Under the pieces are notes generated by a model, which worked only from the letters and a program-made list of their open reading frames with translations, had not been told where the DNA came from and did not search any database. From NCBI RefSeq assembly GCF_007860125.1, contig NZ_SJPW01000006.1, positions 305,844 through 369,843 on the forward strand: a DNA stretch of 64,000 nucleotides, read 5' to 3'. The DNA is from Rubripirellula tenax. GTDB lineage: Bacteria; Planctomycetota; Planctomycetia; Pirellulales; Pirellulaceae. How positions within the stretch are numbered: position 1 is the first letter of the stretch; each line of letters starts with the position of its first letter. This document shows, piece by piece, positions 1,568 through 21,368 of the stretch. The translations under genes were made by a program, and so were the position numbers.

Positions 1568-3811
1568 TTAAGGATTCGGTTCGACCGTCACGTTCTCGAT
1601 TGCGATTTCCGCATTGGTCGAGTTGCCGAACAATCCGGGGCTGCCATTGCGATTGGGTGCGTCATCGGTGGCCGTCAACATCCATTCCTTCGGTTCCGCA
1701 TCGTCGCGCGGCCAAGCCTTGGCACGCAGCACGGCTTGGTCGCCTTCGACCGCGGCGGTGAACTTCAATCGATACCATGTTCCCGCGTTCCATTGAAACG
1801 GAACGCTCTTGGCCATCCGCAACTGGGCCGTCCACGTTCGGATTTGCAACTGCTGGGATTCGCCCATCATGTCCAACGTGTACCGCTGGGCGATCAAACC
1901 GATGTCGGGCATCTTCGCCGCTCCTGCGGCGGCTTGCACGTCGGCCGTGACCGTATAGCCGGCCAAGTCGGTCGGACCAAACCAGGTCTGGCTTCGTGTC
2001 CCCTTGGGGATCGTGGTGATTTTCACGATCGCCGGCTTGCCATCGACATCGCGAGCTTCGTGGCGATAACGAGCACCGATCCAAGTCACGGGAACTTCGT
2101 GGTCGCTGAAGTCGAACGACCAAGGCAACGACGGGATGATGCGGTATCGAGCCACTGCGGTTCGATCGCCCGACGTGACGGTAACCACGGCGGCAATGTG
2201 TTTTTCCGAAGCCTGAGTGACCAAGTTTCCGCCGGCGTCGACGGATGCATTTCCGGTCACGGTGAACTGCAAGTCATTCGGTCGGTTTTCCAAAGGCTGG
2301 CCGGCGGCGTTGTACGCCCACACTTTCAGTGGCAACATCTTGCCAGCCTCGACGATGGCTTCCGAAGGAACGATCTGCAATCGAGCGACGGTGGTATCCG
2401 TCAGGGGCGCATCGGGTTGACGCGCGATCGACAAAGTCGCCGGAGCCGCCTCAACGCCTTCATTGGCCAAACAGAACAAGCCGCCGGTGGTCGGCAAATA
2501 GATTCGGTTGCCGACGACGATCGGCGAACCGCCCACATCGTGACCCTTGGGCAAGCGCACTTTGGAAACCACTTCAACGCCATCATCGGCGGGCTTCAAG
2601 ACGTAGAAAATGCCAGTGCCGGTGCAGGCATAAATTTTGCCGTCGGCGTGAATCAAGCTGCCCCGCATCGACGTTCCCAGCTTCAATCCATCGCCAATCT
2701 CTTCGCCCGTTTCAGCATCTAGGACGTGTAGCTTCGACGAGTCTTCGACCACGTAAACGCGACCGTCGATCAAAAGCGGCGAACTCTTGCCGACGATCAG
2801 CTCCTCCGTCCGCCAAGTCTCAACCGCATTCGAACCCGCCATGGCGGCGGGAACATCCACGCGAACGACCGCGCCCATCAACGTGCCGACAGGGTTTTCT
2901 TCGCCTTGTCCGATGTACGCGTTGCCCTTTCCGTCGACGACGGCCGACGTGTTCAAGCCGCGACGCGAAATTGGCACCGACCAAAGCAGGGCACCAGTCC
3001 GCGGCTCAAAACCGTGCAACCCGCCGTCACCCGATCCGGCGATCATGACGTCTTTGCCGTCGACGTTTGCGAACACGGGCGTGCTGTACGTCGTGTCTTC
3101 GGGCAACGGACGGGTGCTGGTCAACCAAACCAGTTCGCCGGTGAATTTGTCGAACGCCAAAAACCGGTGCGCCGGGCGAGCGGTTTCGTCCCAACCGGTT
3201 GTCACGCCGCTGATGATGATCAAGTTTTCGAACACCGCGGGCGTGTTGGTTCGCCCGCCGTAGGTGCTAAGCATTCCGTATTCTTCGCTAAGCGAATGTG
3301 ACCAAACGGTTTCGCCGGTCTTCGCATCGATACGCTGCAAAAGACAGCACGCACTGAGTGCAAAAACCGAATCGGTTTCAACATCCGCCGTCACGTTGGA
3401 CCAACCGACGCGTTCCGCCGGCACGTCCGACAGAAACACGTTGGTGATGTTTTGCCACAGAAAATCGCCGGACGACGCGTCCAGGCAAATGACTTTTTCA
3501 GCGTCGATCGGCGTGTCGACCATGTGGCGAACGATGGTGAACAAGCGACCGTTCATCACCACCGGCGTTGAAATGCCGGCCGCATCTTCGCTTTTCCAAA
3601 CCACGTTGCTGCCGGCGCCGCCGCGGGGATTGAATTTGTCGATCAATCCCGAGGCTTCGATCGTGCCGTTTTGGTTCGGCCCCCGCCATGCGGTCCAGTC
3701 GCCAGCCGTCGCCACGGCGCTTGTGACCATCGCGATCGCAATCGCCGGAATTGATATCGCCGTTGTCAACCGAGCGAAAGAAAAGACAACGCAGCGTGGC
3801 GTTAGTTTCAT
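1568..3811 (-). CDS. Secreted PQQ-like beta-propeller repeat protein
   Basis: Starting at the ATG at 3811, the protein is 747 residues. This start is preferred over the longer frame from 3892 because it places a signal peptide (MKLTPRCVVF...AIAIAMVTSAVATA) at the very N-terminus. The mature part starts GDWTAWRGPNQNG, the standard opening of planctomycete PQQ_2 propeller proteins. It continues with repeated blades such as KVICLDASSGDFLW, QRIDAKTGETVW, LAFDKFTGELVW, HGFEPRTGALLW and HVLDAETGEEIG. The C-terminal part (about residues 480-747) is a beta-rich extension without blades. It is probably a periplasmic or surface outer-membrane-type scaffold rather than a true quinoprotein dehydrogenase, because no catalytic signature is obvious. 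The gene lies 113 bp downstream of the DUF1552 gene on the same strand. Confidence 0.88.
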   Translation of the reverse strand: MKLTPRCVVFSFARLTTAISIPAIAIAMVTSAVATAGDWTAWRGPNQNGTIEASGLIDKFNPRGGAGSNVVWKSEDAAGISTPVVMNGRLFTIVRHMVDTPIDAEKVICLDASSGDFLWQNITNVFLSDVPAERVGWSNVTADVETDSVFALSACCLLQRIDAKTGETVWSHSLSEEYGMLSTYGGRTNTPAVFENLIIISGVTTGWDETARPAHRFLAFDKFTGELVWLTSTRPLPEDTTYSTPVFANVDGKDVMIAGSGDGGLHGFEPRTGALLWSVPISRRGLNTSAVVDGKGNAYIGQGEENPVGTLMGAVVRVDVPAAMAGSNAVETWRTEELIVGKSSPLLIDGRVYVVEDSSKLHVLDAETGEEIGDGLKLGTSMRGSLIHADGKIYACTGTGIFYVLKPADDGVEVVSKVRLPKGHDVGGSPIVVGNRIYLPTTGGLFCLANEGVEAAPATLSIARQPDAPLTDTTVARLQIVPSEAIVEAGKMLPLKVWAYNAAGQPLENRPNDLQFTVTGNASVDAGGNLVTQASEKHIAAVVTVTSGDRTAVARYRIIPSLPWSFDFSDHEVPVTWIGARYRHEARDVDGKPAIVKITTIPKGTRSQTWFGPTDLAGYTVTADVQAAAGAAKMPDIGLIAQRYTLDMMGESQQLQIRTWTAQLRMAKSVPFQWNAGTWYRLKFTAAVEGDQAVLRAKAWPRDDAEPKEWMLTATDDAPNRNGSPGLFGNSTNAEIAIENVTVEPNP

Positions 3812-3924
3812 AGAGTCACGAAGTACGGCGGGAAGGAACTGAACAGCAGAAGCGTCAACTGCGAAATGTAGTATCCCGCCGCCGGAAAACAATCGTGAAA
3901 GTGCAAGTTTTCAACGATCCAGCA

Positions 3925-5280
3925 TTACGCCAAGCGCAGCCGGTCGGTGCTGTCACCAAACGAACCCTGCTGGACACCCATCCGCTCGATCAGTTCGAGG
4001 TGCAAGTTGGCCATCGGAGTCGCCTCGGAAAGTTTTTGGTGAATGCCACCGCGAATGCCCTGGGCGACACCGCCGGCAAAGATGATCGGAAGATCATCGT
4101 GGTTGTGTCGATCCCCGTCGCTCAAACCGCTTCCGTAAACCAGCAGCGTGTTGTCCAACAACGTCGAACCCGAATCCAGCTTGTGCGACCGCATCACTTC
4201 CAAAAGGTAGGCGAACTGTTCGCTGTAGAACGTGTCGATCTTAGCGATCTTTTCCAGCCGTTCGGCATCTTTTTTGTGGTGCGAAAGGTCGTGGTGACCG
4301 TCGCCGATGTTGATGTCCTTGAACGTTCGGTTGCTGCCGTCGTGAGCCAGCATCAACGTCGATACTCGCGTCGTATCCGTCGCGAGCGCCAACGACATCA
4401 CATCCATCATCAAACGCATGTGATCGCGATAGCTGTCGGGGACTCCCGCCGGCGTGGGATAGTCGGGATCGACGGGCATTCCGAAGCGTTCCGCTTTTTC
4501 GATTCGCGTTTCGATTTCGCGAACACCGGTCACGTATTCGTCCAATTTGCGTCGGTCATCGATGCCCATTTGACGTGTCAAAAATTCCGCCTCTTCCCGC
4601 AAAAAGTCGATCACCGATTCTTGCCGTGCCTGCCGCCGGGCATAGTTTCCCGTTCGCTCGCCATGCGATCCGTCGCCGAACAAACGTTCGAACACCAAAC
4701 GCGGATTGGATTCTGGCGACACCGGCGTCCGTTCATCGGACCACGCCAAGTTGAACTGGTACGCACACGAGTATCCCGAGTCGCATTCGCCACTGCTGCG
4801 AACTCCGTCGCAAGACAATTCCAGCGACGGCAATCGCGTGTCGACACCGATCTTCTTCGCCACGACTTGGTCGGCCGAGACGCCGACGTGGATGTCGGCG
4901 CCCGATGTCTTGTGCGGACGCGCGGCGGTCAAGAACGAAGCACCCGCCCGTGCGTGGTCACCCGCGCCATCACGGTGAATGTAGGCCTCGCGATGTTCCA
5001 AACCCGTGATGAATCGCAACGAATCCCGGAACGGTTCGAGTGCTTTCGTCGATCGGTTGAACTGAAAATCGCTGCCTTCGCCCTGCGGTCGCCAGTGTTC
5101 CATGTTGACGCCGTTGGGGACGTAGACGTAACACAGTCGCATCGATTCACCGCTGGTCGCCGCGGCGTTGGCGGCACCGTTTAGGCTTGGCAAAAACGGC
5201 AACGCCATCGAGAGTCCCGATGCTTTCAAGAATCGTCGGCGGCTGTGGGAAACGGTGGATGCCACGGTGCGTGATTTCAT
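3925..5280 (-). CDS. DUF1552 family protein with Tat signal
   Basis: This 451-residue protein starts with a twin-arginine signal (SRRRFLKA, residues 13-20). It carries the DUF1552 pattern: LCYVYVPNGVNMEHWRP, SLRFITGLEH, then HARAGASFLTAARPHKTSGADIHVGVS, SLELSCDG, and near the end DNTLLVYGSGLSDGDRHNHDDLPIIFAGG, a phosphatase/sulfatase-superfamily-like stretch (compare DUF1501). In planctomycetes these genes almost always lie next to a DUF1587/1592/1588/1585 cytochrome-like gene, and one lies 70 bp upstream here. The pair presumably acts together in the periplasm. The substrate is unknown. Confidence 0.93.
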   Translation of the reverse strand: MKSRTVASTVSHSRRRFLKASGLSMALPFLPSLNGAANAAATSGESMRLCYVYVPNGVNMEHWRPQGEGSDFQFNRSTKALEPFRDSLRFITGLEHREAYIHRDGAGDHARAGASFLTAARPHKTSGADIHVGVSADQVVAKKIGVDTRLPSLELSCDGVRSSGECDSGYSCAYQFNLAWSDERTPVSPESNPRLVFERLFGDGSHGERTGNYARRQARQESVIDFLREEAEFLTRQMGIDDRRKLDEYVTGVREIETRIEKAERFGMPVDPDYPTPAGVPDSYRDHMRLMMDVMSLALATDTTRVSTLMLAHDGSNRTFKDINIGDGHHDLSHHKKDAERLEKIAKIDTFYSEQFAYLLEVMRSHKLDSGSTLLDNTLLVYGSGLSDGDRHNHDDLPIIFAGGVAQGIRGGIHQKLSEATPMANLHLELIERMGVQQGSFGDSTDRLRLA

Positions 5281-5350
5281 GTTCGATTTGCAAATGGGTT
5301 TTGAGGTGGGACCGGATGGCGTTTCGTTTCGCGAACGCCAAAACGTGAAC

Positions 5351-7870
5351 TCAAGGATAAGCGGCGACGGAATCGGACTTGGGAACGTGAGTGAACGGAA
5401 CGCTGCGAATGATCGAACCGATCAAGGATTGCATGCGTCCCTCATCGGTTTTCAACTGGGACACGATTTGGTCGACCGTGGTCGCATCGGTCGACGTCAA
5501 TCCGCGTCCCAAAGCAAACACCAACATCTTTTCGGTCAAGCATCGATAGAAGTCGTCACGGCGTTCATTCGCCAGCACGTCGGCCAACTGGATAACCGAT
5601 TCGAACTTCTCGCCCGTCATCAGAACGCCCGTCGGATCGATCGCTTTGTCCGGTTCGGCTTCACGGCCGCGATGTTCGGGCATTCCCCATTCCATCTCGC
5701 GGAATTGACCGATCGCGTTGTAGTTTTCCAGTGCCAAACCCAGCGGATCCATCCGACTGTGACACGAAGCACACATGGGCTCGCGGCGATGAAATTCAAG
5801 AATCTCGCGCAGCGATGCGTTCTTCATATCGCCGCTCTTGGATTCTTCCAACGCCGGCACGTTCGGTGGCGCCGGCGGTGCCGGTGTGCCCAATAGATTT
5901 TCCAAGATAAACAAGCCGCGTTTCACCGGGCTGGTGCGCGTCGGGTTGCTGGTCACCAGCAAGACCGAGCCGTGGGTCAGAATGCCTTTTCGGTGGCTGT
6001 CTTCAGGTAACGTGACCTTTTGCATGTCGCCGCCATGAACGCCCTCAATTCCGTAAAACTTTGCCAGTGACTCGTTCATGAACGTGTAGTTAGCGTTCAA
6101 CAATTCTTCGGCCGGACGATCCTTTTCGATCAGATACCGAAACATCATTTCGGTTTCGCGCTTCATTCCATCGCGAACGGCCCACGAGAACACGTCCCTG
6201 TCGCCGCGATAGGCCAACACGCGCCGAACGTCGATGGGCTTGTCCATCACGTCGCGCGTCTTCAACCACTGGCCCACGAAATTGGCAACGCCCGTTCGCA
6301 TCCGCCACTCGTCGCCAATCATGCGTTTGATTTGCGCGTCGAGTTCTTGCCGCAACGTGCCCGCCGTCGCCGCCCGAATCAATTCGTCGTCGGGCGGACC
6401 GCCCCACAGGAAATAGCTCATCCGCGACGCGAGTGCGAAGTCGTCGATCGGGTCACCCAGTGGCGACATCGGCATGTCGGGCGGCAACGAAGCCAAACGA
6501 TCGGCGACCAACGGTTGTTCGATCCGAAACAGGAAACGAGGCGACGCCAGGACCAACTTCAACGACGCGGCGATTCCCCGTTCGTAATTGCCGCCGGGCT
6601 GATTTCGAGCCTGGTTCGAAATGGTGACCAATCGGTCGAGTGTCCGATCATCGATGGGCCGACGAAACGCGCGGCCCGCAAAATTCTTAATCACGCCACG
6701 CGTCATCTGATCCAAAGTCGCGTCGTCGGCGTCCTTGGGCGGTGGACCGCCGACCAAAATGTCGCCGCCCCTTCGATACTCTTGGACGTCGCCGTCCGTC
6801 GGCCCGATCATGTCGGCATAGGAAATTCGAAACGTGTACGGGGCCGGCGATGGGTTGTCGGCCTGTTTCGATTTTGTGTCCGTGGACGTCGGTTCAAACA
6901 CCACGCTCAGGTGCACCGGTTCGTCAATCGCCGCAAACGACCCTCGCAATTCGCCGTTGGTTTCGAAAAGGAAACCGGCCTGGGCATGGTCGAGGTCAAC
7001 AATGGTCGCTTCGCCACCGTCTTTGGCTTCGATGTGACGGCGTAATTTCAAATTGGCGGTTTGATCGGTGTTGGTCCAGGCACCGTCCAGTTCCCACCGA
7101 ACCACGATGTCGAAGGTCCCCGCTTTTCCCGTCCACTTCACCAAATGAAACTCGCGGATGTCGATGAACTTGACACCTTCGGCCTTGGGCCCCTCGGGGG
7201 ACTCGAGCCGAAAATGGTCGCTCCAGTGCCGCTGTTCGGGCGGCGTCGGGCCGTCCAACGGGATCGCTTTCGAAACAATCGTTTCCGCCGCGGCCAGGTA
7301 CTTTTCTAACAGCACCGGCGAGATGTGCAGCACCTCGCCAATCGTGTCGAATCCGTACCCCGTGTCGTCCGCCGGGAACGCTTCGGTCGTATCGAATTCG
7401 ACGTCCGTCAGCTGCCGAATCGTTTCGCGATACTCCGACCGGTTCAACCGACGCAGCACGACTTTGCCGGGATCGATTTGGCGCGGGTCGAGTTGGAAGA
7501 CCTCTTTTTGAATCCAGTTGACCCAACCGAGCCGTTCGCTCGGATCGGGCTGCATCTCGTCGGCCGGAGGCATCGTTTCGGCGCGGATGTTTTTCCAAAC
7601 CGCCTCCCAGCGATCGAGCGTCTGTTCGCCGTAACCGCCCTCGGCCAGCTTATCAAAACTGAATCCGCCCTCTTCGCCACCATCGCCGTGGCATCCAAAA
7701 CAACTGTCTTCGAACCGACCGCGAAGTTCTTCTAGATCGACCAGGTACCGATGGTGGCCTTCGGTCGAGGGCGTGTCGTCGTTCGCGGATGATACCGAAG
7801 GCACCAAACACGCGACTGCCACCAACAAACGAAGGATTTGAATACGAATCGGGCGAGGATTGGGCGTCAT
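5351..7870 (-). CDS. DUF1592 domain-containing secreted cytochrome-like protein (DUF1587/1595/1592/1588/1585)
   Basis: The ATG at 7870 gives 839 residues with a signal peptide (residues 1-29). The in-frame extension to 8095 is basic, not signal-like, and was rejected. A c-type heme site CFGCH is at residues 57-61. DUF1587 follows (VVLRRLNRSEYRETIRQLTD), then a carbohydrate-binding-like central region, then DUF1595/DUF1592 (FAGRAFRRPID; MSYFLWGGPPDDEL) and DUF1588 (HGSVLLVTSNPTRTSPVKRG...LGTPAPPAPPNVP). A second CASCH motif lies in RREPMCASCHSRMDPLGLALENYN, just before C-terminal DUF1585. This is the full usual domain order. It is the upstream partner of the DUF1552 gene (70 bp gap), so the two are likely co-transcribed. 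Proposed roles in polymer degradation or electron transfer are unproven. Confidence 0.93.
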   Translation of the reverse strand: MTPNPRPIRIQILRLLVAVACLVPSVSSANDDTPSTEGHHRYLVDLEELRGRFEDSCFGCHGDGGEEGGFSFDKLAEGGYGEQTLDRWEAVWKNIRAETMPPADEMQPDPSERLGWVNWIQKEVFQLDPRQIDPGKVVLRRLNRSEYRETIRQLTDVEFDTTEAFPADDTGYGFDTIGEVLHISPVLLEKYLAAAETIVSKAIPLDGPTPPEQRHWSDHFRLESPEGPKAEGVKFIDIREFHLVKWTGKAGTFDIVVRWELDGAWTNTDQTANLKLRRHIEAKDGGEATIVDLDHAQAGFLFETNGELRGSFAAIDEPVHLSVVFEPTSTDTKSKQADNPSPAPYTFRISYADMIGPTDGDVQEYRRGGDILVGGPPPKDADDATLDQMTRGVIKNFAGRAFRRPIDDRTLDRLVTISNQARNQPGGNYERGIAASLKLVLASPRFLFRIEQPLVADRLASLPPDMPMSPLGDPIDDFALASRMSYFLWGGPPDDELIRAATAGTLRQELDAQIKRMIGDEWRMRTGVANFVGQWLKTRDVMDKPIDVRRVLAYRGDRDVFSWAVRDGMKRETEMMFRYLIEKDRPAEELLNANYTFMNESLAKFYGIEGVHGGDMQKVTLPEDSHRKGILTHGSVLLVTSNPTRTSPVKRGLFILENLLGTPAPPAPPNVPALEESKSGDMKNASLREILEFHRREPMCASCHSRMDPLGLALENYNAIGQFREMEWGMPEHRGREAEPDKAIDPTGVLMTGEKFESVIQLADVLANERRDDFYRCLTEKMLVFALGRGLTSTDATTVDQIVSQLKTDEGRMQSLIGSIIRSVPFTHVPKSDSVAAYP

Positions 7871-18470: not shown

Positions 18471-18603
18471 GTGAACCGCGAAGCGATCATCGGATGCATT
18501 CTTGGAACAGCCGTCGGTGATGCACTCGGCTTGCCCTAAGAAGGCGTTTCGCCGCTGAGGGCGTCCCGATTGCTGGGACCACCGGATCGCTATCGATTCC
18601 TTG
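18471..18603 (+). pseudogene. ADP-ribosylglycohydrolase N-terminal remnant with stop codon
   Basis: From GTG 18471 the reading is VNREAIIGCILGTAVGDALG, then LP, stop (TAA at 18537-18539), then EGVSPLRASRLLGPPDRYRFL. This is the start of an ADP-ribosylglycohydrolase (typical GTAVGDALGLPYEG). The stop replaces the conserved Tyr codon by one base (TAC to TAA). Homology ends abruptly at 18603, exactly where a sequence matching the arm end of the palindromic repeat (TTCAACAGGCTGCT, 18604-18617) begins. The rest of the gene is missing from the window, so it is a dead fragment. The upstream GGGAGAG (18457-18463) looks like the original ribosome site. Confidence 0.85.
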
Positions 18604-18817
18604 TTCAACAGGCTGCTAACCGGGCATTCGTTCGCTGGCGTTCTCGGAACGCTCCGTCAGTTTGAAAGCAAGGAATCCGTTCGGCTATGCCAATACACCT
18701 CACCCGAGACAATTGATCCAAAAACATTGCCCTTTCTGTTCCGATCCGCTAGCCTTGAAGTCCACGATGCGACATCTTTGACCCGCCCTTTTGGTAGGGT
18801 GTGTCGCATAAAGTCAT

Positions 18818-18824
18818 GTTAGCG
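18818..18824 (+). other. Left boundary core site GTTAGCG of first cassette
   Basis: The sequence GTTAGCG is preceded by AGGGTGTGTCGCATAAAGTCAT, which resembles the right end of the attC sites (AGGGCGGTGTCGTAAAAACC...). It may be a decayed attC end or an attI-like site. No R'' partner could be found upstream. Confidence 0.5.
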
Positions 18825-18861
18825 GACGCTAGTTTTTCGTTGCGCGGGCGGGGCGCACGGA

Positions 18862-19148
18862 TTGGAGACTGCCCTCGGAGCATTGACGTTGTTCGTTTCG
18901 GCGGCGCTTTGGTCGTTCGGCGATCCGACGTCCTCTCAGGTTGGTTGCCGGATCCCGCGCGGTCGGTGCGCTGATTGTCACCGCGAAGCGGCGCGCGTTA
19001 CATTCGCGATGATTCGCGCCATTAGCGGGCAATCGGTCACGATGGTCTGCCCGCGAATTGCGCCAATGGCCGCGAATGTGGTGACTCGATTGCGCAGTCC
19101 GCTTGCAAGTCTCATGAAATGGAGGCTGTTTTGGCGATTCAACGCGTC
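18862..19148 (+). other. Content of cassette A, no convincing gene
   Basis: One frame is open from a TTG at 18862 through the cassette and on into the attC site (METALGALTLFVSAALWSFG... near its start), ending at 19335. Reading into the attC argues against a real gene, and no family was recognised. A short minus frame 18829-19032 is equally weak. The cassette may be empty, decayed or regulatory. Confidence 0.35.
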
Positions 19149-19356
19149 CGCTAACATGGTTTTTACGCTAGTCGCGGCTGTCGTCGTTGGAGAGTCTTTC
19201 GGTGCGCAACGTCAATCGCTTCGGTCACGTTCCCACTGGTGCAAACCCGCGATCACCTTGGCTCTTTGGCAACGGGCCCTCGCATTGGTACAATCTTTCG
19301 TAACTCAGAGTCACTCGCTTCGTTCAGGGCGGTGACGTAAAAACCTCCCGTTAGTG
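19149..19356 (+). repeat. attC site 1, 208 bp
   Basis: R'' CGCTAAC (19149-19155), L'' GGTTTTTACG (19158-19167), L' CGTAAAAACC (19336-19345) and R' GTTAGTG (19350-19356). It shares CGCTTCGTTCAGGGCGGTG with the other sites but has about 70 extra bases in the middle, including AACGTCAATCGCTTCGGTC (19208-19226), which recurs at 21733-21751. Confidence 0.85.
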
Positions 19357-19373
19357 GTCACTAGTTTTCACCG

Positions 19374-19877
19374 ATGCCGACCCCGCTCGAACATCCATGG
19401 ATCGCCGAATCTGACTTCGAGCCTGAATATCGTGACTCCATCCGCGTCGCTATGAAATCGACGCAGGCAATGCTCGACTCACATACGCCGCCGAACTGGA
19501 TCATCACTCTGGACGAATCCGCAATGTGGTATCGGGCGCGCACTCGAATCGTCGTCGATGGTGACGCAACGATGGACGTGGAGGGTAATCCGGTTGATTC
19601 GCCCGTTTCTACTTTACTAACCGACTCACAGACTGCCTCATTGCTGGCGGCCTTGTCTGACATCACGCCAGCCACCCTCGTTGATGTCGAGCATTTCGTA
19701 CTTGACGGTACATGGTGCGTCGTCACGGTGGCAAATGGAGTCGACGGATGGTGCGCGTTCTCGCAATTCAACTGCGCCGGAATGGATGCTGCCCAACTTG
19801 CATTACCCGGGCCACACATCGCAACGCTCGTACAATCGTTTTACCGCAGCCTCACACCCAAAACTGATGGCCCGTGA
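19374..19877 (+). CDS. Cassette B protein, unknown function
   Basis: This 167-residue protein starts 23 bp after the cassette start (TT at 19351). Its stop lies just before the R'' of the next attC, the tight fit typical of integron cassettes, and no room is left for its own promoter. It has no signal peptide and no membrane segment. The composition is acidic, with WYRARTRIVVDGDATMDVEG, TLVDVEHFVLDGTWCVV and GWCAFSQFNCAGM strands, suggesting a small alpha/beta cytoplasmic protein. No family was recognised. As with other cassette genes, an immunity, stress or modification role is possible but unsupported. Confidence 0.75.
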   Translation: MPTPLEHPWIAESDFEPEYRDSIRVAMKSTQAMLDSHTPPNWIITLDESAMWYRARTRIVVDGDATMDVEGNPVDSPVSTLLTDSQTASLLAALSDITPATLVDVEHFVLDGTWCVVTVANGVDGWCAFSQFNCAGMDAAQLALPGPHIATLVQSFYRSLTPKTDGP

Positions 19878-20015
19878 CCACTAACATGGTTTTTACGCTA
19901 GGCCTGCGGCACACCTTCCAACTTTGGCAACGCGGGCTGGCCTTGGTACAATTTTCGGTAGTTCAGGCATCGTTCGCTTCGTTCAGGGCGGTGTCGTAAA
20001 AACCTTCCGTTAGGC
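19878..20015 (+). repeat. attC site 2, 138 bp
   Basis: R'' CACTAAC (19878-19884), L'' GGTTTTTACG (19887-19896), L' CGTAAAAACC (19995-20004) and R' GTTAGGC (20009-20015), which fits the GTTRRRY consensus exactly. The R'' is the complement of the R' at the start of cassette B. Confidence 0.9.
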
Positions 20016-20036
20016 GACCTAGCCGTAGAGTAGTTC

Positions 20037-20504
20037 GTGACTTCGACGTGGACTGAAACCGACTTCGACTCACTTGGCTGGCACGACATCCATGTCCACG
20101 GATTTCGCATCGTTGAAGGCGAGCACGGCGTCGGCGATCTTTGGCTCGACCTCGACTACATTCTCGAATGGGTGCCCCCTGCCGCCAAGGGTGGTGCATT
20201 CCGTTTTCGCATCGCACCAGCGTCGCTCGTGTTCCGGGACGTAACATCGCTCCGTCTGGCTCTCGACTACGCTACGCCAACCGCGTCAATGGGGCCGTTT
20301 TCACTTGATGGCATTGAGCGCGAACCGATCTCGTTTGACAATGGCTGCAATTCATTCCGCTGGGCAATCAACGTCAACTGGCCTGATGGTGAAATGACAT
20401 TTGAATCACCGGGTTTTACTCAGACGCTCTCCGGCCCGATCATAGAATCCGATGCGCAATATCTAACAGACGCCGAACGAAATGGTGATGCACCGGTCGC
20501 CTAA
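20037..20504 (+). CDS. Cassette C protein, unknown function
   Basis: This 155-residue protein starts at GTG 20037, 27 bp after the cassette start, and its TAA stop is part of the R'' box GCCTAAC. No signal peptide or membrane segment is present. It has alternating strands with several Trp and Asp: GWHDIHVHGFRIVEGEHG, DLWLDLDYILEWV, FRFRIAPASLVFRDV, NGCNSFRWAINVNWPDGEMTFES. The pattern WHDxxVH...LDLDYIL...P resembles a small-protein family I have seen described as hypothetical and found in scattered bacteria, often in accessory regions. No function can be given. Confidence 0.75.
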   Translation: MTSTWTETDFDSLGWHDIHVHGFRIVEGEHGVGDLWLDLDYILEWVPPAAKGGAFRFRIAPASLVFRDVTSLRLALDYATPTASMGPFSLDGIEREPISFDNGCNSFRWAINVNWPDGEMTFESPGFTQTLSGPIIESDAQYLTDAERNGDAPVA

Positions 20505-20635
20505 CATGGTTTTTACGCTAGGCCTTCGGCACACCGCTGTCGTTTGTTCAGGCCTCCATCCGATGGTAGAATCTTTCGTAGTTCAGGCATTGCTCGCTTC
20601 GTTTAGGGCGGTGTCGTAAAAACCTTCCGTTGGGC
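20499..20635 (+). repeat. attC site 3, 137 bp
   Basis: R'' GCCTAAC (20499-20505, fits RYYYAAC), L'' GGTTTTTACG (20508-20517), L' CGTAAAAACC (20615-20624) and R' GTTGGGC (20629-20635). It is about 80% identical by eye to attC site 2 in its right half. Confidence 0.9.
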
Positions 20636-20681
20636 GATTGGCGTCGTCGCTTGGCGAACCGGCGACGGTCACGGACTGGCG

Positions 20682-21368
20682 ATGAACGCCGCCGCCGTTC
20701 GGTCGTTCCTGCGAGGCGAAGTCGCGGAGTTCGATGATGATCTACCCGAGGATGCGATTCCGCTCTGGCAATCGTCAACTCGGCTGATTCTCGTCACTTC
20801 CCAAGGTTGTCAGCCGTGCGAACTTCAAAAGCAATCCATTCCAAACGATGTTCGCTACGAAACAATCGACATCGAGCGGGTGAATGCGAAAGGCTACGAA
20901 GTGCGAACGACACCAACGCTGATGGTGTTCGTGGACGGAAAGCTGCAAGGCACGTCGAGCGGCCTGCTTCGCGGCGACCGCTTGCGTGCGTTTCTCGATC
21001 GCTGGGGATTCGGCGAAAACCAAACTGAACCCGATGAAACGGAGCCAGCAGACGATTTCAATCCCTGGAACAATCCACGTCGCTGGAACCGAGGCCCGAT
21101 CCGAGATCGCATCGACGAAGCGAAGAGCCGTTTCGCATGGTGGTTGCTCGGAAAGTGGCTCGGTTTCGGATCGGGCGGAATCGCGGTGATCTTCCCGTGG
21201 CTGTTCTTTATCTATCGAGCGTTACGCAAGTTGCGTAGCGACGGTGGCGAAGGATGCCCAGCGAATAAACCACGTTCACGGCGACAGCCCACCAAAAGAA
21301 CGAAGAAACGAACCGCACGACGCCGAACAACGAAGAAACGATCGCCATCCACGCGACAGGGCCGGTAG
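20682..21368 (+). CDS. Cassette D protein: thioredoxin-like domain plus membrane segment
   Basis: This 228-residue protein starts 52 bp after the cassette start at 20630. Residues about 30-115 form a thioredoxin-like fold: LILVTSQGCQPCEL with CxxC Cys 43 and 46, then the cis-Pro region RTTPTLMVFVDGKLQGTSSG. An acidic linker follows, then a hydrophobic helix (about 165-182, AVIFPWLFFIYRAL) and a very basic tail rich in Lys, Arg and Thr. It could be a membrane-tethered disulfide oxidoreductase with its catalytic domain on the N-terminal side. No signal peptide is present. No attC was found after it, so its downstream cassette end is lost or decayed. Confidence 0.8.
   Translation: MNAAAVRSFLRGEVAEFDDDLPEDAIPLWQSSTRLILVTSQGCQPCELQKQSIPNDVRYETIDIERVNAKGYEVRTTPTLMVFVDGKLQGTSSGLLRGDRLRAFLDRWGFGENQTEPDETEPADDFNPWNNPRRWNRGPIRDRIDEAKSRFAWWLLGKWLGFGSGGIAVIFPWLFFIYRALRKLRSDGGEGCPANKPRSRRQPTKRTKKRTARRRTTKKRSPSTRQGR

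Follow-up and report, generated by a model that had tools for sequence, protein, structure and literature searches.

Canonical attC sites are described as carrying two or three single extrahelical bases on the R''-L'' arm, and for IntI1 the deletion of these bases cuts integration about 6-fold and abolishes excision if both sites lack them (according to the available part of PMC2727003). The I2 insert of the integron recombinase is called necessary for cassette capture and said to occur in no other protein in the accessible sections of PMC7790495; those of PMC9668308 call the IntI-specific domain defining and require it for integron detection. They also define a cluster of attC sites lacking integron-integrases (CALIN) as two or more attC separated by less than 4 kb, with no integrase nearby. 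As for transcription within arrays, the available text of PMC2945992 gives a Vibrio promoter that bridges one attC junction (-35 inside the attC, -10 inside the cassette that follows) and is unique in its array, and that of PMC11014356 a transcription start within the attC of one gene-less cassette. Here, we analyze an array of three integron-type cassettes at 18818-20628 of a 64,000-nucleotide stretch of the Rubripirellula tenax genome (8.0 Mb, 42 contigs; G000:C6:305844-369843), hereafter called the window. As read from sequence, the array probably belongs to an integron family of the Pirellulaceae that has a recombinase clade without I2 and folded attC sites with an inner promoter. The window copy, an attI-like site followed by three cassettes without a recombinase gene, would then likely be a detached outpost of this family.

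An earlier note, made from the window's letters alone, had recognized the cassettes by the exact complementarity of their ends. These complements are indeed present: 12 nt at 18818 (GTTAGCGGACGC) with 19144-19155 (GCGTCCGCTAAC), 12 nt at 19350 (GTTAGTGGTCAC) with GTGACCACTAAC, whose position is 19874-19885 rather than 19873-19884 as first given, and 11 nt at 20009 (GTTAGGCGACC) with 20495-20505 (GGTCGCCTAAC). The boxes described as common to the three attC are there as well, and the further attC of the same family that the note had suggested looking for were found elsewhere in the genome. The pattern TAACATGGTTTTTACG, with at most 2 mismatches, has 115 genome matches compared to 1 for the reversed pattern, and a slightly looser box finds 98 sites in a single array on contig C5, 7 on C1, 5 on C7 and 3 in the window. 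All 98 sites of the C5 array pair with an R' half.

Since each cassette carries its own attC in integron recombination, the start of a cassette is expected to match its own R''. In the 108 complete cassettes of this one genome, the exact run between the cassette start and the reverse complement of its own R'' has a mean of 11.3 nt, vs. 4.05 nt within the site and 4.18 +/- 0.17 nt for shuffled partners. The within-cassette run was greater than the within-site run in 105 cassettes, equal in 2 and less in 1, consistent with the earlier attribution of the complements to integron recombination. The bases behind GTT go with the cassette rather than with the site, and the complementary run exceeds the 7-bp core, which would fit a role for pairing in the free, folded circle. 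The longest open reading frame is in the sense direction in 90 of the 108 cassettes and antisense in 15, with none of at least 60 aa in the remaining 3.

The sequence TGTGTCGCATAAAGTCATGTTAG, with up to 3 mismatches, matches the genome three times, each immediately before a first cassette (window on C6, C5 and C1). On C5 this attI-like site lies 292 bp past the integrase. In a survey of the 14 arrays that an integrase gene precedes (four divergent loci, described below, were left out), the attI-like GTT falls 206-334 bp past the point where the integrase match or frame ends, and 9-12 of 12 bases match the first R''. GTT was present in 14/14, in a search that preferred GTT candidates; the attC search itself required GTT with few mismatches. 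These arrays therefore have the own-attC logic of cassettes, an attI beside the recombinase gene and a G^TTRRRY crossover common to attI and attC. Long common flanks of the three attI-like sites of the R. tenax genome were looked for and rejected, only 38-94 bp aligning. Because it has one of these three sites, each of which precedes a first cassette, the window array is not a distal piece of a larger array. Of the two possibilities raised by the earlier note, a CALIN or the distal part of an integron, the latter is thus ruled out, while the former agrees with the definition given above: the three sites lie at 19144-20640 and no integrase match was found in the window.

The earlier note had proposed searching the genome for intI; the recombinase adjoining the C5 array is not a canonical IntI. 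It is a tyrosine recombinase of 490 aa (L031:17981-19453, on the minus strand, which is the cassette strand) that scores 180 bits against TIGR02249, where the cut-off is 265, and aligns with VchIntIA (2A3V) in two stretches between which the IntI-specific region is skipped. The segment between patches II and III measures 65 aa in this enzyme and 47-52 aa in 15 other array integrases, compared to 86 aa in five canonical IntI proteins; in a second alignment it measures 49-69 aa in 19 array-clade members (14 of them new) and 90 aa in four IntI and three spartobacterial proteins. Altogether, the I2 insert is absent from 30/30 array-clade enzymes (16 from the first alignment and 14 further ones taken from sequence only, not from inspected loci), none of which is thus an IntI with an I2 domain, and present in 10/10 comparators (7 IntI, 3 spartobacterial). 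The spartobacterial relatives, having the insert, were rejected; no new-type attC boxes were found at their integrase loci.

The catalytic residues R, K, H, R, H and Y are invariant in all 36 aligned members. In a 53-row tree, the array clade contributes 30 rows (not exactly the 30 enzymes scored for I2), which split off at one branch (99/97), and the IntI and spartobacterial rows are on another (99/97). The array recombinase, which lacks the I2 insert, is therefore likely to represent a tyrosine recombinase clade separate from IntI. The tree is unrooted and some long branches meet, and for this reason it leaves loss and primary absence of I2 undecided. The C5 enzyme also has a C-terminal extension of 148 aa, for which Pfam gave no match at E 0.1.

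Recombinases of this clade occur in 22 of 241 genomes of the family, in 10 of 68 genera (E <= 1e-75). A profile search of a class sample, with 4 candidates scored per genome, matched 7 of 397 genomes, three of them in another family; two of these three loci were inspected and each has one attC of the new type. One genome (G201) has two copies of the I2-less integrase and one canonical IntI. At 19 of the 23 integrase loci studied (G000, its relatives G018 and G021 of the same genus, and 20 others), at least 2 new-type attC adjoin the gene; apart from C5, these are 18 loci spread over seven genus groups; three of the others are at or near a contig edge without a site on either strand, and the last has a single site 3.2 kb off. 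The attC lie downstream in the same direction at 15 of the 19 loci (one array starting 3.1 kb away) and are divergent at 4, ruling out same-direction order as a family trait. At L105, L106, L107 and L109 the same integrase and attC family are found in the classical divergent order, and the platform is therefore flipped relative to the array. Among 37 family genomes in which arrays were called from a pattern-hit excess of at least 25 (next highest 13), the array-clade integrase is present in 3/4 with arrays vs. 0/33 without (p 0.0005); the corresponding figures for canonical IntI are 3/4 and 13/33 (p 0.30). In another genus, L061 and L062 (G034:C11, C13) hold about 22 new-type attC, and C26 has a truncated IntI-like piece at its edge.

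Judged by its genes and sites, the R. tenax genome holds a second, ordinary integron system beside the new-type arrays. Three canonical IntI genes (L035-L037; G000:C4, C8 and the start of C1) are accompanied by 5, 8 and 3 canonical-type attC, respectively, and by none of the new type; a fourth, partial one has neither type near it. The array loci of C5 and C1 (L029-L033) were found to have no canonical-type attC. Locus L034 (G000:C7:1-9000) is a junction of the two integron types, with a canonical-type block at 46-2656, an orphan R' half and a new-type block at 2983-5979. Its positions 2861-2984 (124 nt) are 100% identical to 19227-19350 of the window.

To characterize the sites, 353 distinct attC (318 short-type and 35 long-type) were collected by patterns for the R and L boxes; R and L pairing is thus partly built in, and helix 3, the mini-hairpin and the promoter are not in the patterns. 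A structure of 18 pairs (3 R, 10 L, 5 helix 3) has 97.8% of 270 cells paired in 15 dereplicated short-type sites from several genera, with two-sided changes at 5/18 pairs. Its score was reached by 0/500 shuffles, and a slid alignment is at most 48% paired. In 339/353 sites, 9 or more of the 10 L-helix pairs are formed, the search patterns holding both L halves, and the helix also shows changes on both sides that are not built in, e.g. GGTTTTGCCG with CGGCAAAACC. In helix 3, ACACC is opposite GGTGT in 282/288 sites; where the 3' half is unusual (30 short-type sites), the exact partner is found in 13, compared to 3.7 +/- 1.5 after shuffling (maximum 9 in 1000 shuffles). This covariation points to a folded structure with R and L helices.

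The R''-L'' arm has some 13-16 extra bases between the L helix and helix 3, the opposite arm having none there. The extrahelical bases anticipated in the earlier note are not of the canonical kind: single ones are absent from the L helix, and the two or three on the R''-L'' arm were not found. The arm instead forms a mini-hairpin with a 3-nt loop in 302/318 short-type sites vs. 9.5% of shuffles, with stems GCC/GGC (246 sites), GCCC/GGGC (38), TCGC/GCGA (7) and few others. These counts follow a strict rule; a looser one gave 322/353, but 36% of shuffles pass it. In the window, attC2 and attC3 carry the mini-hairpin and attC1, a long-type site, has neither feature. Long-type attC (L029-L031, L034, window attC1 and other arrays) differ from the short type in their 5' part, and both types have a promoter-bearing 3' part of about 98 nt in common.

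A -10 box resembling TAnAAT is found 61-62 bases before GTT in 156 of 166 sites. It agrees with TATAAT at 5 or more of 6 positions in 147/166 sites, compared to 2.4% of shuffles, and in 301 of all 353 sites, 52 being below. The best -35 box is 17 bp from the -10 in 153/166 sites (ties went to 17), the arrangement of a sigma-70 promoter. Sequence-weighted conservation at ten promoter positions (-35 TTG, extended -10 TG, TA.AAT) is 1.29 bits vs. 0.34 elsewhere, a value reached by 0/20000 random ten-position sets. Since the best -10 within a range of 9 bases fixed the register, the -10 itself is favoured, but neither the -35 nor the TG is. Such a box occurs anywhere on the other strand in only 8/166 sites. 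The combined score is 8-11 of 12 in 163/166 sites, and 6-8 in 164/166 antisense sequences, 157/166 shuffles and 16/16 canonical attC, which are shorter; in these 16 sites of the same genome it is no better than in antisense sequences. In the 8 long-type sites listed, the spacing is 17 bp in 8/8 and the -10 has at least 5 of 6 matches in 5/8, the promoter part being common with the short types. Within an array the motif faces the gene of the next cassette. By these data, most attC carry a sigma-70-like promoter motif directed at the following cassette, a feature that the earlier note had not mentioned.

Several observations weigh against an integron family with an I2-less recombinase and folded, promoter-bearing sites. 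The attC are related by descent, leaving an effective n of 21-39. The mini-hairpin is found in 0/35 long-type sites, window attC1 included, and we have therefore slightly lowered our confidence in this reading, which we still hold to be probable, and by a little more that in the tentative proposal of I2-free capture set out below. Bottom-strand folding energy, suggested as a check by the earlier note, is not decisive by itself, the z-scores for the three window sites being +0.73, +0.84 and -2.43, two of them no better than shuffles. The C5 enzyme has at least 16 extra residues in the I2 region, by eye unlike the IntI insert, and in-frame stops occur in 6 of 23 integrase matches. G034 has arrays, and no array-clade integrase was found there at E <= 1e-40. 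On C7, six canonical-type attC are followed by five of the new type on the same strand. Lastly, canonical IntI is present in 19/22 carriers of the array-clade integrase vs. 103/219 other genomes (p 0.0005), and action in trans is therefore possible. A canonical IntI would then work the new-type arrays, and the I2-less neighbour would do something else or be a degenerate IntI. The mixed blocks on C7 are in line with this, as is the necessity of I2 for capture (PMC7790495, for the part available). However, the three canonical IntI genes of R. tenax adjoin the other attC type (16 canonical, 0 new) and L029-L033 hold none of that type, 13/33 array-free family genomes also have canonical IntI, and the I2-less clade keeps its catalytic residues and forms a separate clade. 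Moreover, in G183, G186 and G209 the I2-less enzyme occurs without a canonical IntI match at E <= 1e-70 (G183 and G186 are less than 90% complete), an array adjoining the I2-less gene in G186 and G209 only. We thus consider it unlikely that canonical IntI serves these arrays.

Similarly, the TTG and TAnAAT segments could be a variable terminal structure of the site, or merely inherited, rather than promoters: all sites, long and short, are homologous, and both boxes sit toward the inside of the hairpin, a place that could have a structural function. Yet the weighted conservation peaks at the promoter positions, while the third base of the -10 and the larger part of the spacer vary, the preferred spacing is 17 bp, the extended -10 TG is conserved though unused for the register, and the motif is one-stranded. 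A non-promoter origin is accordingly improbable in our view. As for ordinary dispersed repeats with chance complements and no recombination system, the unremarkable folding energies at two sites are what one would see, but the own-R'' run (11.3 vs. 4.18 nt with shuffled partners) refutes this idea; identical cassettes at different array positions, the attI-like sites and the truncation of a host gene at the end of the array also speak against it, and its likelihood is negligible.

We therefore return to the I2-less integron family and propose how it might work. A short-type attC would consist of an R helix, an L helix of 10 bp that has no single extrahelical bases, a mini-hairpin on the R''-L'' arm, helix 3 and an inner promoter segment. 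The clade recombinase, acting on these attC and attI sites with a single strand as probable substrate, would join attI, at G^TT, to a circular cassette whose attC is folded, and excision would be the reverse reaction between two attC. The mini-hairpin may replace extrahelical bases in the choice of strand and direction and is perhaps read by the C-terminal extension of the recombinase; long-type sites would work without it or via another element. In the free circle, the attC promoter would face the cassette's own gene. Once inserted, the gene would sit downstream of the promoter in the upstream attC and, if these promoters fire, expression could therefore be independent of how far the gene is from a single Pc. 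More tentatively, and with somewhat less than even confidence, we suggest that capture via folded attC needs no I2 helix: a clade next to IntI would run I2-free integrons, with a mini-hairpin in most sites, attC that are both recombination sites and promoters, and the whole array expressed, and may preserve a pre-I2 state.

The features of the window array are collected in the table. The window was correctly described as lacking an integrase: tblastn with two queries, the integrase of the C5 array and a canonical IntI, gave a best match with an E of 0.17. No integrase remnant was found upstream of the array either. The gene starting 52 bp past the last border (20682-21368), taken in the earlier note for a cassette gene, is instead the 3' part of a truncated host gene. 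Homology of the flank begins 8 bp past the last GTT of the array: residues 234-453 of a 471-aa frame in G021 (L138) correspond to window 20637-21287 by tblastn, and the rest of that frame has no window match at E 0.1. By this comparison, the far end of the array is a host gene cut at its 5' end by the last crossover. The flank gene gave weak thioredoxin matches, under curated cut-offs, and its missing 5' part is presumably protease-like, judging by motifs. The family of this gene (L138-L140) has three matches in the R. tenax genome and three in G021. On the other side of the array, a degenerate frame with a stop lies at 18472-18700, which we take to resemble ADP-ribosylglycohydrolase. The single Rfam match in the window at gathering thresholds is a tRNA.

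Table. Coordinates of the array features and the adjoining flank in the window.
Feature	Position	Strand	Parts and remarks	Basis
attI-like site	18800..18822	+	TGTGTCGCATAAAGTCAT^GTTAG, crossover at G18818	genome-wide pattern match
Cassette 1	18818..19349	+	long-type attC; no convincing gene	12-nt terminal complement; open reading frame list
attC1, long type	19144..19361	+	AAC-to-GTT 194 nt; R'' 19144-19155, L'' 19158-19167, L' 19336-19345, R' from 19350; standard mini-hairpin absent	
attC1 promoter-like element	19266..19294	+	-35 TTGGCA 19266-19271, -10 TACAAT 19289-19294	family statistics
Cassette 2	19350..20008	+		12-nt terminal complement
Cassette 2 gene	19374..19877	+	167 aa	no Pfam, NCBIfam or PADLOC match
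attC2, short type	19874..20020	+	L'' 19888-19897, L' 19995-20004, R' from 20009; extrahelical mini-hairpin 19898-19910; helix 3, 19911-19915 with 19990-19994	
attC2 promoter-like element	19924..19952	+	TTGGCA 19924-19929, TACAAT 19947-19952	
Cassette 3	20009..20628	+		11-nt terminal complement
Cassette 3 gene	20037..20504	+	155 aa, GTG start	no Pfam or NCBIfam match at thresholds used
attC3, short type	20494..20640	+	L'' 20508-20517, L' 20615-20624, R' from 20629; mini-hairpin 20518-20530; helix 3, 20531-20535 with 20610-20614	
attC3 promoter-like element	20544..20572	+	TTGTTC 20544-20549, TAGAAT 20567-20572	
Chromosomal flank	20637..21368	+	3' part of longer gene, 5' part absent from window	

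Cassette 2 has a copy in the C5 array (L031:2490-3149; 82.9% identity over 661 bp), which encodes an 87% identical protein (L031:2622-3125). Comparison of 323 cassette bodies gave 63 pairs related over 70% or more of their length. Complete (100%) identity was seen in eight pairs, always inside a single genome (five genomes in all); between genomes there is one pair at 99.0% (R. tenax and G018) and two at about 93% between genera. Pfam recognizes 28 families among 88 cassette proteins, each of the 25 listed occurring in one member, and the cassette proteins are mostly of no assigned family. A defence role was rejected, PADLOC recognizing one family, in 1/88 proteins.

In the open-access literature, with subscription papers and preprints outside the scope of the search, our searches listed no paper on an I2-less integron recombinase or on promoters built into every attC. 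If true, a natural I2-free integron family would uncouple folded-site capture from I2 and provide a living test of the origin of IntI, and promoter-bearing attC would be a different answer to the expression of distal cassettes in giant arrays. The family resembles sedentary chromosomal integrons such as the Vibrio superintegron in its cassettes of about 0.5 kb, mostly with a sense gene, its attI by the recombinase gene, its R''/R' logic and its G^TT crossover. It differs from them in that the recombinase lacks I2 and falls outside the IntI clade, and in that the attC lack single extrahelical L-helix bases and in most cases have a full promoter motif; the canonical attC of R. tenax itself (16, on C4, C8 and C1) are shorter, with 75-78 nt inside, and have no promoter.

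Like a CALIN, the window has three attC and no integrase was found in it, but the array has an attI-like site of its own. Surveys requiring the IntI-specific domain, as the available text of PMC9668308 describes, are expected either to record these arrays as CALIN or to overlook them. The same-direction integrons of Treponema also have a recombinase gene that points at attI and the cassettes, as at 15/19 loci here; however, the accessible portion of PMC3607928 describes their intI as an ordinary integron integrase gene, and 4/19 of our loci are divergent. Transcription starting inside a cassette array is known from Vibrio (PMC2945992 and PMC11014356, in the parts available), whereas here a full promoter motif, recognized from sequence alone, lies inside most attC. 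XerC and XerD, after which several array-clade proteins are named in public records, have a similar patch II-III length and no I2, but the enzymes described here are linked to arrays, form a separate clade and, in the case of the C5 enzyme, have a C-terminal extension of about 150 aa. What appears to set the family apart is thus the combination of a recombinase without I2, a mini-hairpin in most attC and a promoter motif in most attC.

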